Positions 32,429 through 43,901 of a stretch of DNA of 64,000 nucleotides are shown here, piece by piece. The translations under genes were made by a program, and so were the position numbers. The number at the start of each line of letters is the position of its first letter. The first letter of the stretch is position 1. The notes under the pieces are model-generated. The model saw only the letters and a program-made list of their open reading frames with translations, was not told the DNA's origin and ran no database searches. The stretch is from assembly GCA_013426755.1 (NCBI GenBank), contig AP019861.1, positions 889,638 to 953,637 of the forward strand. Direction: 5' to 3'. The stretch comes from Spirochaetota bacterium (GTDB lineage Bacteria; Spirochaetota; UBA12135; COTS27).

Positions 32429-35400
32429 TTGAAATCTTCTAACCAATCTTCCACAATCAAAAAAAAATTAAATAATCACAAAAAAATAAAGGCTGGCACT
32501 GAAAAATCTCGCCCAGCATTAGTCATAAAAAATGCTCGCGAACACAATCTTCGTAGTGTGTCATTAGAAATTCCCAAAAATGCTCTTTGTGTAGTCACAG
32601 GTGTTTCAGGGTCTGGGAAATCATCCTTAGCCTTTGATACCATTTTAAAGGAAGGACAACGGCGTTATGTCGCTTCATTGTCATCGTACGCCCGGCAGTT
32701 TATTCAAGCTTCCGATAAGGCAGATGTCGATGCTATAGAAGGACTTTCTCCAACGATAAGTATTGATCAGAAATCCGGTGGCGTCAATCCGCGTTCTACA
32801 GTGGGAACAATTACAGAGATCTATGATTATTTGCGGCTTTTTTATGCACGTATAGGTGTCCCGCATTGTCCCAACGGGCATGGTGTCATTGCCAATGAAA
32901 CTACAGATGTTGTCCATCGTACATTGATGCGGCAATGTGAAGGCAGAACGGTGCTTATTATGGCACCTATTGTTTTAGACCGCAAGGGTGAATATCGTAA
33001 AGAACAAGAAATGTTTTATAAAGACGGTTTTCTAAGAATGTTAATCAATGGAAAACTGCAGCGCATTGAAGAACCTGTGGCGCTGGCTAGATATGAAAAA
33101 CATCGCCTCGAAGTGGTTATTGATCGCGTGGACGTTGCTAGCCACCATGCTACGCGGATAATAGAAGCGATAAAGAAGGCAAGCGAATTAGCAGCGGGGA
33201 AGATCTCGGTATTACGCTATGATAAACTAGACCGCAATGACAACGTAAGTCGTGTCACGTATAAAGAAGGAAAAGATTATTTTTTATTTAACCTTAAAAA
33301 TACGTGTCGTGTGTGTGGGGTGGGTGTGCCAGAATTGGAACCACGGCTGTTTTCATACAATTCACTTCCACATGCTTGTCAAGTTTGTAGAGGACTTGGG
33401 GAGCAGAGTGCTTTTGATGGACGATTTTTTGTAGCCGATGAAAATGAAGGCATTTCTAACGGGGCGCTCCACGTTATCAATGATAGAGGCAATGTACTCT
33501 ATGCTAATTATGGAGGTGATCAGATCAAGGCTATCTATAAATACTATGGTTTTGCTCTCGATACACCCTGGAAAGAGTTGCCCGTTTGGTTTCATAACAG
33601 GTTGTTTTATGGCTACCGAGATGATGAAGCAGCTGTTGTTCACTCAAATACAGGAAAAAAGAAGCCGTTATCAGCGTTATCACCCGTTAAGCGTAGAAAA
33701 TTACTCAAACGTAAACGACGACACTCGGCTGTCGCTCTAGAGACAATACAACAAAAACTTGATGGCAATGCAATTGACGATAAAATCGATTTTCATATTA
33801 TTGAAGCATTGGATTGGGTGTATGACACGTATAAAATTCGTCCGTTGGAAAAATATCGCCGTGTGGACATGTGTAAAAGTTGTGATGGTAGTGGGTTAGG
33901 TGAGATAGCGCGTAATGTCTCATTTCGTGGCAAGGCTATTTATGAATTGAACGTACAAACAGTTCAAGTCCTTCACGATTATTTTACAAAACTTCTTAAA
34001 GGTGGCGTAAGTGAAGTTCATGAAGAGATCTGGAAGCCAGTTGTCCGTGAAATTCACGAACGATTAGGTCTTCTCTTGTATATAGGACTAGAATATTTGA
34101 CACTTAATAGAAAGGCAAACACGTTATCAGGCGGTGAGGCGCAGCGCATTCGTCTTGCTTCACAGATTGGAAGTGGATTAGAAGGGTGTTTGTATATACT
34201 AGATGAACCGTCTATAGGACTTCATGCCAGTGATAATCAAAAACTGATACAAATGCTCCGTAAATTGCGAGATAAGAAAAATTCGTTAATCGTCGTCGAG
34301 CACGACGAAGAGACGATGTTAGCCTCAGATTACCTTTTGGAACTGGGACCTGGCGCTGGAATTCGTGGTGGTGCTGTAACGTTTTCAGGGGGGTTGAAGA
34401 ATTTAACGGCTCAGCAGGTTAAAGGTGTGACGTTAGATTATTTGGTTGGAAAAAAATATTACACGCCTCCACTAAGAAATGATCGCTTCGAGAATTGGCT
34501 CAAATTTGAAGCTATCAATCGATTCAATCTAGCCAATTTAACGGTATCTTTCCCACTAGGACATTTGACGGTGATTACAGGTGTCTCTGGTTCTGGCAAG
34601 TCAACTTTAATGAACGTCATGACCCGTGCTATTAAAGATAGCCTCAATCATTACAAAAAACAGTGGCGTAAAAAACGGCAGCAGCCGACTACCGCTTACC
34701 ATAAGCGTGCTGCGACTAAGAAGGACAAAGCCAGCAGCCTCGATGAAGAGAGTACTAAGCAGTGCCCTGAAGAAAGACTTGCCGTATACGGACAAGGAAG
34801 TAGAGATGTCAAGTATATCACAGGGCTTAGGGCAGTAGAAAATTTCCTGCTTATCGATCAAAAACCGATAGGACGTACGTCGCGAAGTAATCCAGCAACA
34901 TATACAAAAGCTTGGGATACGGTTCGTGATATTTTTGCAAACCAGAAATCGGCTAAAATTCGTGGTTACACGAAGAGCCATTTTTCCTTCAATGTGCCTG
35001 GCGGAAGGTGTCAGCATTGTGAAGGATCGGGTGTGATTGAAATGGATATGCAGATGTTTGCACCTGTGGAGGTGGTCTGTGAGGTCTGCAATGGAAAGCG
35101 ATTCCATACGGGTGTATTGAATATTTTTTATAACGAGAAGAACATCTATGACGTGCTTGAAATGAGCATTGAAGAAGCGTATCAATTTTTTAAGGTTTTT
35201 AAAAAATTGGAACGGATTTTGGGTATTCTAGTTAATATTGGTCTTGGGTATATGAAGGTAGGGCAGTTGTCTACGACGCTTTCTGGAGGAGAGGCGCAGC
35301 GCATTAAGCTCGCTGCGGAGCTTTCAAAAAGCGCAACGGGAACAACAGTCTACTTTCTAGACGAACCAACAACAGGACTTCATTTCGAAGACATTAAACG

Positions 35401-38400
35401 ACTGCTCAGTGCCTTATATCAATTGACAAAAATGGGACAAACAGTCGTTGTTATCGAACACAATATGGAAGTGATTCAAGCTGCAGAATATCTATTAGAA
35501 CTAGGCCCGGGTGGTGGTGAAGCGGGCGGAAAATTGATTGTCAACGGGGCGCTTACCGAACTTTTAAAAAAGAAGACGCCAACCGCACTTGCATTTCAAG
35601 AATACAGTGATCGTCAGCACAAAAAGAAACAAGGGCATTACCTTAAAATGAAAAATTTTAATACGCTCTTAAAAAAAATGCCCGCCACTTCTACGGTTAA
35701 CCAGCTCCCGTCTCCAGTAAGAAAAGATACCGTTCGTAAAATCAATGCCCTAGCCAATGAAAATCAAATCATCGTCGAAGACCTTAAAACAAACAATCTT
35801 AAAAATGTCTCTTTCACAATACCTAAGTATCAAGTGACGGTTGTTACAGGTGTCTCTGGGTCAGGAAAAAGTTCTATTGCATTAGAAAGCATTTTTTTAG
35901 AGGGGCAACGTAAATATTTAGAGAGTCTATCGACTTATGCGAGACGATTTTTAGGACGTATCGGTCGTGTCAATGCCGAACGAATGGACAATCTTTCTCC
36001 GACGATCTGTATTGACAGAAAGCGTGTGGCACGCAGTCCGCGTTCTATTATTGCAACGCATACAGAGATTTACGATTATCTGCGTGTGCTCTACGGAAAT
36101 ATTGGAAGGCCGCATTGTCTTAAATGTGATCTTCCGTTAACACAATATACGCCTGCCCAAGTCGTCCAGAATATTACAAAAGAATACACGGGGGCGACGC
36201 TCTTATTTCTAGCGCCATTATGGTTAGAAGAATTCACTAAGCGGTCTCGGGCTTCCACTTCATCACAAGGAATTTATACGCCCGCTAGTGATTTCACGTG
36301 TTTTATCGAGACAAAAGATAAATTGAATTCTTATTTAGAATTAATTTTAGAGCGTGGCTATCTGCGCATGGTTATTGATGGGCAGTTGGTACGGATAGGT
36401 AGTGATGTAAAAGGAACAGATCGGACTGAACTTGTCGAGAAAATGAAGCAAGCTCACCATATCTTCCTGGTGATAGATAGATTTAAGATTAGAGAGCAGG
36501 ATTTTGCACGGATTTTAGAAGCAACAGAGCGTAGCTATAAGCTTAGCAATGGTCTATTACGAATTGAAGTCGTTACGTCTAGCCAATCTAAAGAACCTAC
36601 GCGAGCACAGCAAGTAGTCAATAGTCATAGTACTGCTAAAAAGAATGATTCCATTTCAAAAAAAGCCAGTGCGTATCAATATTACACGCGATTTCTTAGT
36701 TGTATGGATGATTTTATCGTGATGAAGGATGTTCCAACTGCGCGAGATTTTTCATTTAATTACCACCTTGGGGCGTGTGCTAAGTGCAGTGGACTCGGTT
36801 TTTCTCGTTCGGCTGCATTGACAAATATCATTTTGAACGAGAATGGAGTTATCTTTAAGGCAGGTTCTACCCGCAAGCAAAAACTAACTTCTGCGTGGGT
36901 CTCGGACCTTGATAATTGGATCAATTCTGATGATATTGAGGCTGTAAAGTTAAGAAATGAAGGTGGACACTGGACGCCTTCACTACAAAAATTGACATGG
37001 CGCGAGTTATTTTTACCTGAATATAGGGCAGAACACGATCTCTTTTTCTATGGCAAGGGACGGTGGCGTGGTTTTTATGCATTTCTAGAATTAATCACCG
37101 TAGACCGTTCTAAGCACTATCGTACGTTGCGAAATGTACTTTTATCTACTATTAGGATGACAACTTGCACAGCCTGTGGTGGCGGAAGACTCAATGCTGG
37201 ATTGCTTCGTGTTCGTGTGGCTGGCCATTCTATTTACGATGTGACACGTTACTCTGTTACAGATGCGTATATGTGGTCTAGTCAATTGTTAAAGCGTCTT
37301 AGTGGTCGTGAAAAAGAGATTGTTAAGGAGATTAGCAAAGAAATTACATTTCGGCTTAAGCAGATGCTCGATCTTGGGCTCGGTTACTTAACGTTAAATC
37401 GTAGAATGGCGACTTTAGCGGGTGGTGAAGTGGAGCGGATTCGGCTTTCTACGCAAATGGGAAGTCGTCTTTCAGATGTGATCTATGTTCTCGATGAACC
37501 TTCTGTTGGGTTGCATGAATATGAAAATCACTTGCTGGTTAAAATTATTAAGCGACTTAAACAATTAGGCAATACAGTTGTGATTGTAGAACATTCTGCT
37601 GGGGTTATTGAGCAGGCAGATTATATTATTGACGTAGGTCCTGCGGCGGGTGAACATGGCGGGACTTTGACGTATGTCGGACGCAATGATAAACGAGCTG
37701 CTGGATTTGATAAATGTAGTTTCTATCCCTACCTATATACGAAAAACCAAGGGCTTAGAAAATTGATTTACAATAGGAATTGTAACGTCTCAGAACGTAA
37801 TTTAGAACAAAAAACACTCCTTAAAACAGGAGGCTATCTGCAATTAACACATGTGAGACGGCATAATTTGAAAGATTTTACGGTACGAGTCCCACTTTGT
37901 GCGATAACGGGTATCTCAGGTGTCTCAGGTTCGGGTAAAAGTTCGCTTATTGAATGGATTCAAGAAAGATTTTCTGTCTCACCAGCAGATTCTAATGAAG
38001 AGGCGCTGCATTTTCATAATAAAGAACAAGCTGCCAATATTGGGTTTATCCAGGCTATAAAAAAAGATGTTGCCACTCAGCCGAGTTATAGCAGTAAGCG
38101 TAAAAAAAATGCTACTAAATCGTCTCCGTTAACAATGGAAGTGAAAGCATTTAAAATGCCTAAGGAATGTATCATGGTCGATCAAAGTGCAATCACCACC
38201 AGTAAACGGTTGATCGTTGCCAGTACAATGGATTTTCTAAGCGATATTCGTGAAGTTTTCTATAAAACTCGTCTAGCACGCGAACGTGGGTATACAATGG
38301 GACATTTCTCGTTCAATGTGGCACGGAAGGGCGGATGTGAACGGTGTCATGGTTTAGGCGAAGAAGAGATTGAAATGCATTTTCTGTCGGATATTTCAAT

Positions 38401-38929
38401 TACTTGCGATTCTTGTCGTGGGAAACGTTATCGCAATGAAATTCTTGAAGTTTATCACAATGGTAAAAATATTCATGAAGTCCTTGAGTTGACTATTGCT
38501 GAGGCGAAAGAGTTTTTTTACAGTTATACGAAGATTGTTAGGAAACTGGACAGATTAATAGACGTTGGGTTAGGGTATTTGAAGTGTGGATTTGCAACCG
38601 CTAAACTTTCCAGTGGTGAGCGGCAGCGGCTTAAAATAGCGCGCGAACTTGCTTTTGAAGCGGCTGAGAGCAAGCTTTATATTCTTGATGAACCGACTAC
38701 GGGGTTACATTTTAAGGACATTCAGACGCTAATTTATGCTCTAGATGCGCTTGTTAAGAAGGGTGGAACGGTAATTGTCGTAGAGCACAATGTCGAATTT
38801 CTCCGCAGTGTTGATTACCTTATTGACTTAGGTCCTAAGGGCGGCAATGAGGGGGGCTATGTTGTTGCTGAGGGAACGGTTGCTGAGGTTAAAAAAACTA
38901 AAAAAGGCTATACCAGTAAATATCTTTAA
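32429..38929 (+). CDS. uvrA: Tandem UvrA-UvrA fusion (excinuclease ABC damage-recognition subunit)
   Basis: UvrA finds bulky DNA lesions and loads UvrB. Normal UvrA is about 940 residues; this one is 2166 and consists of two complete UvrA copies in one frame (about 1-1090 and 1110-2166), giving four ABC domains. Walker A motifs (GVSGSGKSS/T) are near residues 58, 717, 1140 and 1831. Copy 1 has both canonical signatures (LSGGEAQRI, near 566 and 950). It also has paired CxxC zinc sites (CRVCG...CQVCRG; CQHCEG...CEVCNG). Copy 2 has altered signatures (LAGGEVERI near 1663, LSSGERQRL near 2059) and at its first insertion site only one obvious CxxC (CAKC). Chlamydiae also carry double-length UvrA. 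The start is a TTG behind AGGA. Confidence 0.95.
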   Translation: MKSSNQSSTIKKKLNNHKKIKAGTEKSRPALVIKNAREHNLRSVSLEIPKNALCVVTGVSGSGKSSLAFDTILKEGQRRYVASLSSYARQFIQASDKADVDAIEGLSPTISIDQKSGGVNPRSTVGTITEIYDYLRLFYARIGVPHCPNGHGVIANETTDVVHRTLMRQCEGRTVLIMAPIVLDRKGEYRKEQEMFYKDGFLRMLINGKLQRIEEPVALARYEKHRLEVVIDRVDVASHHATRIIEAIKKASELAAGKISVLRYDKLDRNDNVSRVTYKEGKDYFLFNLKNTCRVCGVGVPELEPRLFSYNSLPHACQVCRGLGEQSAFDGRFFVADENEGISNGALHVINDRGNVLYANYGGDQIKAIYKYYGFALDTPWKELPVWFHNRLFYGYRDDEAAVVHSNTGKKKPLSALSPVKRRKLLKRKRRHSAVALETIQQKLDGNAIDDKIDFHIIEALDWVYDTYKIRPLEKYRRVDMCKSCDGSGLGEIARNVSFRGKAIYELNVQTVQVLHDYFTKLLKGGVSEVHEEIWKPVVREIHERLGLLLYIGLEYLTLNRKANTLSGGEAQRIRLASQIGSGLEGCLYILDEPSIGLHASDNQKLIQMLRKLRDKKNSLIVVEHDEETMLASDYLLELGPGAGIRGGAVTFSGGLKNLTAQQVKGVTLDYLVGKKYYTPPLRNDRFENWLKFEAINRFNLANLTVSFPLGHLTVITGVSGSGKSTLMNVMTRAIKDSLNHYKKQWRKKRQQPTTAYHKRAATKKDKASSLDEESTKQCPEERLAVYGQGSRDVKYITGLRAVENFLLIDQKPIGRTSRSNPATYTKAWDTVRDIFANQKSAKIRGYTKSHFSFNVPGGRCQHCEGSGVIEMDMQMFAPVEVVCEVCNGKRFHTGVLNIFYNEKNIYDVLEMSIEEAYQFFKVFKKLERILGILVNIGLGYMKVGQLSTTLSGGEAQRIKLAAELSKSATGTTVYFLDEPTTGLHFEDIKRLLSALYQLTKMGQTVVVIEHNMEVIQAAEYLLELGPGGGEAGGKLIVNGALTELLKKKTPTALAFQEYSDRQHKKKQGHYLKMKNFNTLLKKMPATSTVNQLPSPVRKDTVRKINALANENQIIVEDLKTNNLKNVSFTIPKYQVTVVTGVSGSGKSSIALESIFLEGQRKYLESLSTYARRFLGRIGRVNAERMDNLSPTICIDRKRVARSPRSIIATHTEIYDYLRVLYGNIGRPHCLKCDLPLTQYTPAQVVQNITKEYTGATLLFLAPLWLEEFTKRSRASTSSQGIYTPASDFTCFIETKDKLNSYLELILERGYLRMVIDGQLVRIGSDVKGTDRTELVEKMKQAHHIFLVIDRFKIREQDFARILEATERSYKLSNGLLRIEVVTSSQSKEPTRAQQVVNSHSTAKKNDSISKKASAYQYYTRFLSCMDDFIVMKDVPTARDFSFNYHLGACAKCSGLGFSRSAALTNIILNENGVIFKAGSTRKQKLTSAWVSDLDNWINSDDIEAVKLRNEGGHWTPSLQKLTWRELFLPEYRAEHDLFFYGKGRWRGFYAFLELITVDRSKHYRTLRNVLLSTIRMTTCTACGGGRLNAGLLRVRVAGHSIYDVTRYSVTDAYMWSSQLLKRLSGREKEIVKEISKEITFRLKQMLDLGLGYLTLNRRMATLAGGEVERIRLSTQMGSRLSDVIYVLDEPSVGLHEYENHLLVKIIKRLKQLGNTVVIVEHSAGVIEQADYIIDVGPAAGEHGGTLTYVGRNDKRAAGFDKCSFYPYLYTKNQGLRKLIYNRNCNVSERNLEQKTLLKTGGYLQLTHVRRHNLKDFTVRVPLCAITGISGVSGSGKSSLIEWIQERFSVSPADSNEEALHFHNKEQAANIGFIQAIKKDVATQPSYSSKRKKNATKSSPLTMEVKAFKMPKECIMVDQSAITTSKRLIVASTMDFLSDIREVFYKTRLARERGYTMGHFSFNVARKGGCERCHGLGEEEIEMHFLSDISITCDSCRGKRYRNEILEVYHNGKNIHEVLELTIAEAKEFFYSYTKIVRKLDRLIDVGLGYLKCGFATAKLSSGERQRLKIARELAFEAAESKLYILDEPTTGLHFKDIQTLIYALDALVKKGGTVIVVEHNVEFLRSVDYLIDLGPKGGNEGGYVVAEGTVAEVKKTKKGYTSKYL

Positions 38930-39034: not shown

Positions 39035-39874
39035 TTAAAGTAGAGAACTCATGGCTAGGTCGTGTTCATAACGTTTGATCCTTTTTTTAGCGATGTCGAT
39101 ATAGGCTTTTGATATGTCAATGCAGAGAAATTGACGGTCGAGAAGTTTAGCCATTTTACCTGTTGTTCCACTGCCACACATTGGGTCGAAGACTAAGGCA
39201 TTTTTATTTGTCCACGATAGAATATGATCGTAGGCTAGTTTTTCTGGGAATACTGCTGGGTGCAGGAAGGCTTCTCGGTCGGTAGTTGTTCCGCCTAAGC
39301 CAACGGCGTATTGCCAGATATTTGTTTTTGTTTTTTCTTTGTTTAAGGTGGCTTTAGTCTTACGGTTTATCCCGTCTGCTTTTTTGTTATAAACGACCAT
39401 TTCTTCACCAGAACGGATAGTTTTTTGTTTGATCGGGTTAAAAACGGCAGGTTTGCCTTTGCAGAGCACGAACATAAATTCATAACAATTGGTATAAGCA
39501 TTGCTTCGCATAAAAGGTGTATTTTTCTTTTGATAAATCATGACGTCGTGCATATTAAAGCCAATGTCACGAAAATACAAACCTTGTTTGAAACTGGTAA
39601 GTGTCCTGCCGCCGGTTATTTTATCGCCAACGACCCAGACGACAATTCCATTTGGCTTGGTTATCCGGTATAATTGGTCTGCAATAGCCTCAAAATCAAA
39701 TTTGTATCCATCGTAGTTGCGTAAGTTATCATAAGGAGGAGAGGTGACGGTTAGGTCTACGGTACAAGGACGCATGCCTTGCATAAATTTAACGCAATCA
39801 CTCACATAAAAACCGCGTTTTTCATCATTGGCTAGAGAGGTTTTTGCGTTGCGTTTTACGGTGCGGGTTGCCAT
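39035..39874 (-). CDS. DNA methyltransferase, SPPY type (probable N4-cytosine or beta-class)
   Basis: A 279-residue SAM-dependent DNA methyltransferase. The catalytic motif IV is TSPPY (residues 44-48) and the SAM motif I is FDPMCGSGTTGKMA (about 229-242). Motif IV before motif I makes it a beta-class enzyme. SPPY is usual for N4-cytosine enzymes, but some N6-adenine enzymes also have it. The rest (ITKPNGIVVWVVGD, NAYTNCYEFMFVLCKG) fits the family. No restriction endonuclease gene is adjacent: the neighbours are uvrA and gabD. It may be an orphan regulatory methyltransferase. The target sequence cannot be read from the protein. Confidence 0.87.
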   Translation of the reverse strand: MATRTVKRNAKTSLANDEKRGFYVSDCVKFMQGMRPCTVDLTVTSPPYDNLRNYDGYKFDFEAIADQLYRITKPNGIVVWVVGDKITGGRTLTSFKQGLYFRDIGFNMHDVMIYQKKNTPFMRSNAYTNCYEFMFVLCKGKPAVFNPIKQKTIRSGEEMVVYNKKADGINRKTKATLNKEKTKTNIWQYAVGLGGTTTDREAFLHPAVFPEKLAYDHILSWTNKNALVFDPMCGSGTTGKMAKLLDRQFLCIDISKAYIDIAKKRIKRYEHDLAMSSLL

Positions 39875-40049
39875 AGATGATTTATGCTGCTTTTATGATT
39901 TATGCTGCTTTTTTTGTAGGCTTGCCAGTGGATATAAAATCTTTGATAGTTTTTGATGTTTTTAGTGTTTTGAATTACTGGGTAACACGAGGTAACATAA
40001 TTAAGAGAGTAGTGTATTTAGGTGTATTTGGGTCTGGTGAGGTGTTTGT

Positions 40050-41540
40050 TTAGGTGTCAATGCCGCCCATAAGTAGGTATTTCGTATAGAGGTATTCTTG
40101 AATGCCTTCTGTAGCGCCTTCGCGGCCCATACCGGATTCTTTGATACCGCCAAATGGAGCGGTTTCGTAGCTAATAATACCTTCATTGATCCCAATAATG
40201 CCCGCTTCAATGCTCTCAGCGACACGCCACACACGACCGACGTCGCGTGAATAGAAATAAGCGGCTAATCCATAAGGTGTATTATTCGCAGTAGCAATAA
40301 CCTCAGCTTCTGTTTGGAAAGGAATAATGCCGCCCACTGGACCAAAGGTTTCTTCAGTATTTAAGAGTGCGTCGGGGGAAACGTTACTTAGTACGGTAGG
40401 TGCGTAGAAGTTCTTACCCAAATGAGCAAGGGGTTTTCCACCCGTAGTGATTTGTGCGCCATGTGCGGTTGCATCGGAGACATGGTGCTGTACTTTTGTA
40501 AAAGCAGCGTCATTGATAAGAGGTCCGATCTGTGCGTCTGGTGTAAATCCATCAGCGACTTTAAATTGGCTCACCGCAGCGGTGAGTTTCTCAATGAAAT
40601 CTTTATAAAGCTTTTTATGGACAAATATACGATTGGCACAGACACATGTCTGTCCGCTGTTACGGTATTTGCAGATAAGAGCACCTGCGACAGCTTTGTC
40701 TAGATCGGCGTCTTCAAACACAATAAATGGCGCATTTCCGCCTAATTCTAGCGATAATTTTTTAAGTGTGGTAGCGGATTGTTCCATTAATATTTTACCA
40801 ACGCGCGTAGACCCTGTGAGTGATATTTTTTTTACGATTGGATTTGTGCAGGCTTCTTTACCGATGGCTACGGCGTCGCCTGTAAGTAATTGAATGACGC
40901 CTGCTAAGCCATTTGCCTTAGAAAAGCCTGCTTGTTCAGCGAGTTTGATAAGAGCGATAGCGGTATAAGGTGTGAATTCAGAACATTTGACGATCATGGG
41001 ACATCCTGCTGCAAGCGCTGGAGCGAGTTTTCGTGTGACCATGGCTGCGGGGAAATTCCACGGTGTAATAGCGAATGTGACACCGATAGGTTGTTGGATG
41101 ACCATAATTCGTGTGCCGTGTTTTTGGTGTGGAACATGGCGTCCATAAATACGACGTCCTTCTTCTGCAAACCATCTGATAAAGCTGGCGGCGTAAGCGA
41201 TTTCGCCTTTGGCTTCGGCGAGTGGTTTTCCATTTTCACTGGTTAAAATAGCAGCTAGATCGCTTTCATTGGCTAGAATAAGCCGATACCAATTCATGAG
41301 CATATTGGCGCGTTCTAAAGCGGTGTGTCCTTTCCAGTGTGGAAGTACTTTGCTAGCAGATTCAATGGCTAGTTTGGTTTCTCTCTGGTCCATCCATGGA
41401 ATGCTACCTATAAGTTTTTGTGTGGCTGGATTGTGCACTGGCTGGGTCTTTTTAGAATGCGCTTCAACCCATTCTCCAGCAATAAATCCATGTTCGGATA
41501 GCAATTCAGTATTTTTTATGGTTACAGGGTAGGTCGTCAT
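40050..41540 (-). CDS. gabD: Succinate-semialdehyde dehydrogenase (NADP+)
   Basis: Oxidises succinate semialdehyde to succinate. The 496-residue aldehyde dehydrogenase has GVTFAITPWNFPAAMVTRKLAPALAAGC (cofactor binding), SLTGSTRVGKILM, the general base in LSLELGGNAPFIVF, and the catalytic Cys in NSGQTCVCANRI. EEGRRIYGRHVP and the ending GIKESGMGREG are characteristic of the GabD branch. The gene stands alone on the minus strand, with repeats upstream (41541-43058). No GABA transaminase is visible in the window. Confidence 0.92.
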   Translation of the reverse strand: MTTYPVTIKNTELLSEHGFIAGEWVEAHSKKTQPVHNPATQKLIGSIPWMDQRETKLAIESASKVLPHWKGHTALERANMLMNWYRLILANESDLAAILTSENGKPLAEAKGEIAYAASFIRWFAEEGRRIYGRHVPHQKHGTRIMVIQQPIGVTFAITPWNFPAAMVTRKLAPALAAGCPMIVKCSEFTPYTAIALIKLAEQAGFSKANGLAGVIQLLTGDAVAIGKEACTNPIVKKISLTGSTRVGKILMEQSATTLKKLSLELGGNAPFIVFEDADLDKAVAGALICKYRNSGQTCVCANRIFVHKKLYKDFIEKLTAAVSQFKVADGFTPDAQIGPLINDAAFTKVQHHVSDATAHGAQITTGGKPLAHLGKNFYAPTVLSNVSPDALLNTEETFGPVGGIIPFQTEAEVIATANNTPYGLAAYFYSRDVGRVWRVAESIEAGIIGINEGIISYETAPFGGIKESGMGREGATEGIQEYLYTKYLLMGGIDT

Positions 41541-41604: not shown

Positions 41605-41685
41605 AAAATGTTATTTATAGTCCAATTTACAGTTCAATTTATAGCTCAATTTACAGTTCAATTTATAGAACAATTGACTGAGCCG
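41605..41685. repeat. Short tandem repeat of CAATTTA(C/T)AG(T/C)T
   Basis: About five units of (T)CAATTTATAG(T/C)(C/T) and TCAATTTACAGTT alternate (period about 14-15 bp, paired as about 29 bp). It lies just upstream of gabD, on whose strand it would be part of the leader or promoter region. I see no known binding site. Confidence 0.75.
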
Positions 41686-41784: not shown

Positions 41785-42297
41785 ATGGCTTCTCTGTCAA
41801 GATTCAATGCTTCCCCATCGAGATTGGGTGATTCTCAATCGAGATTCAATGCCTCCCCATCAAAATTCAATGTCTCTCCATTGAGATTGAGTGATTCTTA
41901 ATCGAGACTGAGCACTTCTCCATTAAAATTCAATGTCTCTCCATTGAGATTGAGTGATTCTTAATCGAGATTGAGTACTTCTCCATTAAAATTCAATGCC
42001 TCTCCATTGAGATTGAGTGATTCTTAATCGAGATTGAGTACTTCTCCATTAAAATTCAATGTCTCTCCATCGAGATTGAGTGATTCTTAATCGAGACTGA
42101 GCACTTCTCCATTAAAATTCAATGTCTCTCCATTGAGATTGAGTGATTCTTAATCGAGATTGAGTACTTCTCCACTAAAATTTAATGCCTCTCCATTGAG
42201 ATTGAGTGATTCTTAATCGAGATTGAGCACTTCCCCATCAAAATTCAATGTCTCTCCATCGAGATTGAGAGATTCTCAATCTAGCTCTGATGATTGA
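41785..42297 (+). repeat. 63-bp tandem array made of 21-bp subunits; ghost heptapeptide-repeat ORF
   Basis: GATTCT(T/C)AATCGAGA recurs at 41830, 41893, 41956, 42019, 42082, 42145, 42208 and 42271, an exact 63-bp period. Each unit divides into three related 21-bp parts (seven codons). On the plus strand a single frame from ATG 41785 to TGA 42297 reads heptads such as SRFNASP, SKFNVSP and SRLSDSQ. It is interrupted only by TAA in the six inner copies (at 41899, 41962, 42025, 42088, 42151 and 42214), where the two outer copies keep CAA. The first open part is 38 codons. GATTGAG and CTCAATC within units can also form hairpins. Whether it was ever coding is uncertain. Confidence 0.85.
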
Positions 42298-42392: not shown

Positions 42393-42500
42393 AGGTCTGT
42401 TAAAGATTAGGGTCTGTTAAGGATTGGGGTCTATTAAGGATTGGGGTCTGTTAAGAATTAGGGGCTATTTTAAGAATTAGGGTCTGTTTTAAGGATTATA
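42393..42500. repeat. 17-bp tandem repeat GGTCTGTTAAGGATTGG
   Basis: GGTCT(G/A)TTAA(A/G)(G/A)ATT(A/G)G recurs at 42394, 42411, 42428 and 42445, then continues in a stretched form (TTTTAAGAATTAGG). It follows the 63-bp array and precedes two hairpins. No gene is visible. Confidence 0.8.
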
Positions 42501-42523: not shown

Positions 42524-42540
42524 TGGTGTGTTTATTGAAA

Positions 42541-42570
42541 AATTCTCCTACCTGAGAGAATTTTTTTTAA
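42541..42570 (+). terminator. Intrinsic terminator, plus strand
   Basis: AATTCTC (42541-42547) pairs with GAGAATT (within 42556-42562) across an 8-nt loop and is followed by a run of eight Ts. There is no annotated plus-strand gene upstream except the 63-bp repeat array, so this may terminate a transcript of that array. Confidence 0.65.
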
Positions 42571-42654
42571 AAATTCTCCCATCAAGGGAATAAGCTATTG
42601 AAATTTATTCGTTGCGAATGAGCTATTGAAACTTATTTGTTAGAATTCAATTTT

Positions 42655-42738
42655 TATGCGTATTATTATGCGTACTATTTTATTATGCGTGCTATTATGT
42701 GTGCCATTATGCGTACTGTTATGCGTATTACTGTCATG
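42655..42738. repeat. Short ATTATGCGTACT-type repeats
   Basis: About seven diverged copies of (T)ATTATGCGTA(C/T)T with 11-15 bp spacing. They create a chance open frame rich in Tyr, Met, Arg and Ile. They lie about 320 bp upstream of flaB. Confidence 0.7.
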
Positions 42739-43058: not shown

Positions 43059-43901
43059 ATGAAAATTAATCACAATATCTCTGCTGTGAACTCAACAAGA
43101 GTACTCAATGCACGTAACCTTACGATAAGAACTGGGTTTGAGCGTGTTTCTTCTGGAGAACGCATTAATAGATCGGGAGATGATCCTGCGTCTTTTGCGG
43201 TTTCAGAAAAGCTAAGAACACAGATCAGTTCGCTTGTTTCGGCAGGAAAAAACACAAACGATGCTATATCGTTTATTCAAACGACCGAAGGGTACCTGCG
43301 CGAATCGCAAAACCTTTTGACGCGCATCAAAGAACTTGCCATTCAGGCGGGTAATGGGATTTATTCGAGCTCAGATCGATTACATGTCCAGAAAGAAGTC
43401 AGTCAATTGGTTTCAGAGATCAATCGGATTTCATCTTTTGCTGAGTTTAATGGGCAGAAAATCCTCGATGGACGGTTTGCACGCGGGAGTGCTGAAAGTG
43501 TTCCACTCGCATCCTTATATTTCCACGTAGGACCTGATGTTGATCAGAGTATTCGCGCATTTATATCAACATTCAATTCAACCGCATTGGGTCTAGAAAA
43601 TATCAGTATTTCTTCACCTGCTAAGGCGAATCAGGCTATTGCGACCATTGATGAGGCGCTTTCGCGTGTCAATGACCAGCGCACCGACCTCGGCGCCTAT
43701 CAAAATAGGCTTGGTTCTGTGCTCAGCACGACTAATGTTACGGTTGAGAATTTTATTGATGCAGAAAGCAAAATTCGTGACGCAGATATCGCTCAAGAAA
43801 TTACTGATCTTGCCAGAGACCTTCTTGTCAATCAAGCCAATATTGCAATGCTCGCTCAAGCAAATACAAATGCCCAGAGTATCCTGCGCCTAGTTGGATA
43901 G
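43059..43901 (+). CDS. flaB: Flagellin, FlaB type (periplasmic flagellar filament)
   Basis: The core protein of the spirochaetal periplasmic flagellum. The 280-residue chain begins MKINHNISAVNSTRVLNA, with a D0/D1 helix (ERVSSGERINRSGDDPASFAVSEKLRTQI), SFIQTTEGYLRESQNLLTRIKELAIQAGNGIYSSSDR and INRISSFAEFNGQKILDGRFARG. It has no outer D2/D3 domains. The C-terminus (DLGAYQNRLGSVL, ESKIRDADIAQEIT, NIAMLAQANTNAQSILRL) mirrors the N-terminal helix. Both the short middle (ASLYFHVGPDVDQ) and the length match spirochaete FlaB. A GGAG Shine-Dalgarno lies about 10 bp before ATG. I found no convincing sigma28 box; TATAAT at 42946 lacks a good -35. No other flagellar gene is near. Confidence 0.94.
   Translation: MKINHNISAVNSTRVLNARNLTIRTGFERVSSGERINRSGDDPASFAVSEKLRTQISSLVSAGKNTNDAISFIQTTEGYLRESQNLLTRIKELAIQAGNGIYSSSDRLHVQKEVSQLVSEINRISSFAEFNGQKILDGRFARGSAESVPLASLYFHVGPDVDQSIRAFISTFNSTALGLENISISSPAKANQAIATIDEALSRVNDQRTDLGAYQNRLGSVLSTTNVTVENFIDAESKIRDADIAQEITDLARDLLVNQANIAMLAQANTNAQSILRLVG

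Follow-up and report, generated by a model that had tools for sequence, protein, structure and literature searches.

Long intergenic regions with tandem repeats that expand and contract have been described in Ehrlichia ruminantium (E. ruminantium), and slipped-strand mispairing has been proposed for these repeats, according to the account of the original work given in later papers (Collins et al., 2005, cited via PMC10710844 and PMC3287509). A 2012 survey counted 201 repeats detected by TRF in the 1.516 Mb of E. ruminantium, amounting to 6.3% of bases, which it described as the highest repeat content reported for bacteria as of that year (PMC3287509). The VNTR loci of Wolbachia are intergenic minisatellites that have internal sub-repeats and near-identical units, for which concerted evolution has been suggested, the wMel genome containing 93 repeats that constitute 1.6% of bases (PMC3287509).

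Here, we describe a tandem array from a genome of the phylum Spirochaetota (assembly GCA_013426755.1, contig AP019861.1), identified in a window, i.e., the whole stretch of DNA that was analyzed, of 64,000 nucleotides. As stated in a preliminary description of this DNA, the array consists of eight 63-bp units, each made of three 21-bp parts, at exact spacing; the sequence and TRF agree on this arrangement, and it is confirmed here. In all probability, the array is a neutral non-coding minisatellite with a higher-order repeat, made in place by slippage or unequal recombination. Its components are the following.

41785..42288, no strand assigned: tandem array of eight 63-bp units, each comprising three 21-bp monomers, A, B, and C
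Monomer A of the array at 41785..42288 (21 bp): AATGYCTCTCCATTGAGATTG
Monomer B of the array at 41785..42288 (21 bp): AGTGATTCTTAATCGAGATTG
Monomer C of the array at 41785..42288 (21 bp): AGTACTTCTCCATTAAAATTC
41785..41847, no strand assigned: unit 1, the diverged left edge, with CAA retained at 41836
41848..42225, no strand assigned: six homogenized inner units, with TTAA that gives TAA in the plus-strand frame of 41785
42226..42288, no strand assigned: unit 8, the diverged right edge, with CAA retained at 42277

TRF places the array at 41802–42281 with a period of 63 bp (7.6 copies, 91% matches, score 771), and its second call over the same interval has a period of 21 bp with 64% matches. 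The self-identity of the array is 0.64 at a shift of 21 bp vs. 0.88 at a shift of 63 bp, and hence the trimeric organization of the unit is real. The eight units are not separated by any indel. Approximately one-quarter of positions differ between units 1 and 2, and the final monomer of the array has diverged as well. As in a minisatellite, head-to-tail units within the range of 10–100 bp follow one another at constant spacing, outside genes and with no sign of coding constraint. Four variant sites recur at an exact distance of 189 bp; a third level of organization at this step was rejected, as only these four sites match and the overall identity is not above that at the 63-bp shift. Among the variable columns of units 2–8 (41848–42288), 11 are C/T and two are A/G on the plus strand, an excess that may reflect a strand-asymmetric mutation pattern.

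The array is localized in a 1518-bp intergenic gap, bounded by genes for an aldehyde dehydrogenase (minus strand) and a flagellin (plus strand). At least four further tandem repeats, unrelated to the 63-bp array, are found within the same gap, the features of which are listed below.

40050..41540, minus strand: aldehyde dehydrogenase gene, a boundary of the gap (Pfam PF00171, 2.8e-155)
41613..41675, no strand assigned: separate 12/24-bp tandem array
42394..42498, no strand assigned: separate 17-bp tandem array
Approximately 42537..42567, no strand assigned: AT-rich terminator-like hairpin with a T run
42588..42641, no strand assigned: separate 28-bp duplication
42650..42730, no strand assigned: separate imperfect 12-bp array
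43059..43901, plus strand: flagellin gene of the flaB type, a boundary of the gap (Pfam PF00669/PF00700)

The flagellin encoded at 43059..43901 is 65% identical to its counterpart in a genome of the same family, and a short flaB-type flagellin is common to all 60 relatives from the phylum. The hairpin at 42537–42567 had been taken for a plus-strand terminator. Such a hairpin is indeed present, but it does not single out the plus strand, since it folds equally well on both (−10.1 kcal/mol, z −3.8; opposite strand −9.6, z −3.5). There is no plus-strand gene upstream of it within the gap, and a G+C-based terminator scan did not pick it up. A terminator that is symmetrical on both strands is plausible.

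Searches of 60 genomes of the phylum and of phages and plasmids yielded nothing similar to this array. The preliminary description had pointed to related strains as the place to look for an intact frame; no homologous array in which such a frame could be read was found among the 60 genomes. In G001, the sole same-family genome compared, genes for an M20 peptidase, a double-length UvrA, and flaB are located in a row, and the interval between UvrA and flaB is 502 bp long and contains no array. The order in the window is M20 peptidase, double UvrA, DNA methylase, aldehyde dehydrogenase, the array-filled gap, and flaB. Based on the similar gene order and on the array-free interval in G001, the array is best read, from sequence comparison, as having been acquired locally once the two lineages had split.

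The double UvrA is itself common to both members of this spirochaete family. It is a head-to-tail protein of 2166 aa with two UvrA_inter domains and six ABC stretches, encoded at 32429–38929 of the window and at L141:1474–7929 in G001, and the two versions are 47% identical. The DNA methylase and aldehyde dehydrogenase genes (39035–41540 of the window) separate UvrA from flaB, which are neighbors in G001. In the latter genome, a methylase gene is located beyond the M20 peptidase gene, and the closest dehydrogenase, with 54% identity, is on another contig.

The load of tandem arrays in the genome was estimated from 20 evenly spaced 20-kb stretches, i.e., 400 kb, or 15% of the 2.68-Mb chromosome. 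This sample contains 296 non-overlapping arrays (74 per 100 kb), compared to two of any kind in 400 kb of control sequence from an order-1 Markov model of the genome. As a repeat, the array at 41785–42288 therefore exceeds chance by far. In the same 15% sample, arrays occupy 31% of non-coding bases, an unusually high intergenic share of tandem repeats of the kind seen in E. ruminantium, and the entire chromosome is estimated to hold a couple of thousand arrays. Four other genomes of the phylum, with 80–100 kb sampled in each, have 2.0–8.0 arrays per 100 kb, and a small sample of G001 has 31 arrays per 100 kb, with 30% of non-coding bases in arrays.

The array at 41785–42288 would rank sixth by score against the 224 non-coding arrays of the sample. 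Higher-order periods were observed in 36 of 336 arrays, approximately one in nine. Comparison of 138 arrays with each other yielded 14 similar pairs, the members of a pair always sharing the same 20-kb locus. Since arrays at different loci are unrelated, each of them arose from local sequence; a mobile repeat family as their source was rejected, as arrays are alike only when they share a locus. It is the number of arrays per genome that is unusual, not the array studied here or its supposed broken gene, and this array is unremarkable within a minisatellite population of unusual density. The genome, assembled as a single 2.68-Mb contig, has only 35 tRNA genes and an estimated completeness of 75.7%; the few tRNAs and the low completeness may indicate a reduced or host-associated lifestyle.

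Several observations would fit a structured non-coding RNA or a hairpin array, possibly on the minus strand, where the plus-strand C/T changes of units 2–8 would be tolerated via G-U replacing A-U pairs. The 63-bp unit is quasi-palindromic, with its palindrome content exceeding that of shuffles (P 0.002–0.003), and the minus strand of the array folds with z of −2.8 to −3.2 relative to tile-preserving nulls, one or two of 150 repeat-preserving nulls being as low. We nevertheless consider this explanation, which the preliminary description had offered as an alternative, very unlikely. The minus-strand fold is moderate, the plus strand shows no folding advantage over shuffled tiles (z −0.9 to −1.7), single units fold no better than shuffles, and an Rfam search of the array gave no match. 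In a comparison of 110 non-coding arrays the palindrome P-value of the unit is 0.01, the joint-lowest, which is the level expected by chance for the best of 110; given this distribution, the palindrome signal can be a chance tail. Moreover, arrays overall barely exceed control intergenic DNA in palindrome content, P ≤ 0.01 being reached by two of 110 non-coding arrays vs. none of 110 control segments, and P ≤ 0.05 by nine vs. seven. The case for a hairpin array at 41785–42288 is, consequently, weak.

The main proposal of the preliminary description was a relic gene for a repetitive protein made of heptapeptides, inactivated when a CAA codon mutated to TAA and the change spread from unit to unit. 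The plus-strand frame from the ATG at 41785 to the TGA at 42295–42297 comprises 170 codons and is interrupted by TAA at 41899, 41962, 42025, 42088, 42151, and 42214 and nowhere else; TAA in the six inner units and CAA in the first and last are exactly as had been noted, and the unit length of 63 bp is divisible by three. However, such openness is expected by chance. The numbers of stops in the six frames of the consensus unit are 1, 4, 1, 1, 1, and 1, so that all but one of the six frames contain a single stop, and some frame with at most one stop is present in 99.7% of freely shuffled units and in 99.9% of units with permuted monomer columns; hence, the near-open frame of 41785 carries no weight. 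Elsewhere in the genome, non-coding arrays whose period is a multiple of three often surpass this array in openness. The periods of non-coding arrays modulo 3 (0/1/2) are distributed as 61/76/87, with no preference for multiples of three; among arrays inside open coding frames, the period is a multiple of three in 63 of 72.

Differences between units in the frame of 41785 show no synonymous bias (6 of 11 with 5.0 expected, and 7 of 17 with 6.7 expected; P 0.37–0.53). No ribosome site precedes the ATG, the nearest candidate, AGGA, ending 25 nt upstream, and an in-frame TAA immediately precedes the ATG. The longest actual open reading frame in the array is 38 aa. Pfam matches of the read-through frame are weak and summed, to the unrelated domains Rb_C and DUF6820, with no single stretch being significant, and, as described above, a homologous array is missing both from the relatives searched and from the corresponding interval of G001. 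Of the features of a repetitive-protein gene or pseudogene that were looked for, namely openness beyond chance, synonymous bias, and an intact homologous gene, none was found. The array has no coding signal, and a heptapeptide gene, dead or alive, is highly unlikely here. What stands of the proposed spreading mutation is that the TAA variant is most simply a C-to-T change propagated by unit duplication or conversion; its interpretation as a nonsense mutation in a gene does not stand. A gene made readable by UAA suppression or reassignment, consistent with a frame interrupted by TAA alone, has a negligible probability. The suppressor tRNA that had been proposed as a check is absent from the 35 tRNAs that ARAGORN read in the genome, not one of which has the UAA-reading anticodon UUA; to the extent that these tRNAs are the full set, this reading is refuted. 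Moreover, TAA ends 22 of the 33 genes of the window, more than any other stop.

For the array as a neutral minisatellite, we infer an origin by slippage and exchange. A local 21-bp stretch would have been duplicated in tandem, with subsequent divergence of the copies, and three diverged monomers would then have been amplified as one 63-bp block by replication slippage or unequal recombination. The C-to-T change that produced TTAA may have been present in the 63-bp block already or have been gained soon after. Further unequal exchange or conversion would keep the inner units alike, leaving older sequence at both edges. Such an array would not yield any specific product and, if it has an effect at all, would lengthen the gap upstream of flaB. 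At the level of the genome, the lineage would tolerate or generate tandem duplications throughout its intergenic DNA, the array being one of many independent ones.

Loss of mismatch repair or of RecA was rejected as a cause: MutS, with intact ATPase motifs, MutL, and RecA are all present in the array-bearing genome, and hence the expansion is not accounted for by a simple defect in repair. The MutS protein (L103:5221–8226) is 1016 aa long and contains approximately 90 proline/glutamine-rich residues between two conserved blocks. The SbcD model has no match in the two repeat-rich genomes, nor in several other relatives, so this lack of a match is uninformative as to the cause. Hairpin-driven slippage was also rejected as a general cause, given that palindromes are hardly more pronounced in arrays than in control DNA. 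We tentatively suggest that the load of local tandem duplications in this family may be among the densest seen in a bacterium, with higher-order repeats formed by the rules of eukaryotic satellites. The cause would then be lineage-wide: an enzyme of replication or repair may be altered, for example, or selection on the length of intergenic DNA may be very weak.

In higher-order repeats of the alpha-satellite type, a multimer of diverged monomers is amplified and homogenized, and older monomers are found at the edges. The present array shares this layout, having diverged monomers, a homogenized multimer, and older edges, but it is bacterial and spans only about 500 bp, and we know of no centromere or other role for it. 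Like the VNTR loci of Wolbachia, it is intergenic and contains sub-repeats and near-identical units, whereas such loci are far fewer per genome in Wolbachia. The array leads to a bacterial lineage with nearly a third of its intergenic DNA remodeled by tandem duplication, and this repeat-rich lineage of spirochaetes would allow one to ask directly what keeps minisatellites from accumulating in most bacteria. For the genome-wide expansion, the closest described case that it resembles is E. ruminantium, an alphaproteobacterium rather than a spirochaete, which likewise has long intergenic regions full of tandem repeats. The repeats of E. ruminantium change their copy number, while the present arrays are known from the sequence of one strain. 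With TRF scoring as in the 2012 survey, the 400-kb sample, i.e., 15% of the chromosome, yields 389 rows (972 per Mb), covering 10.2% when summed and 6.9% as a union, and thus its array density is above that of E. ruminantium at equal scoring.
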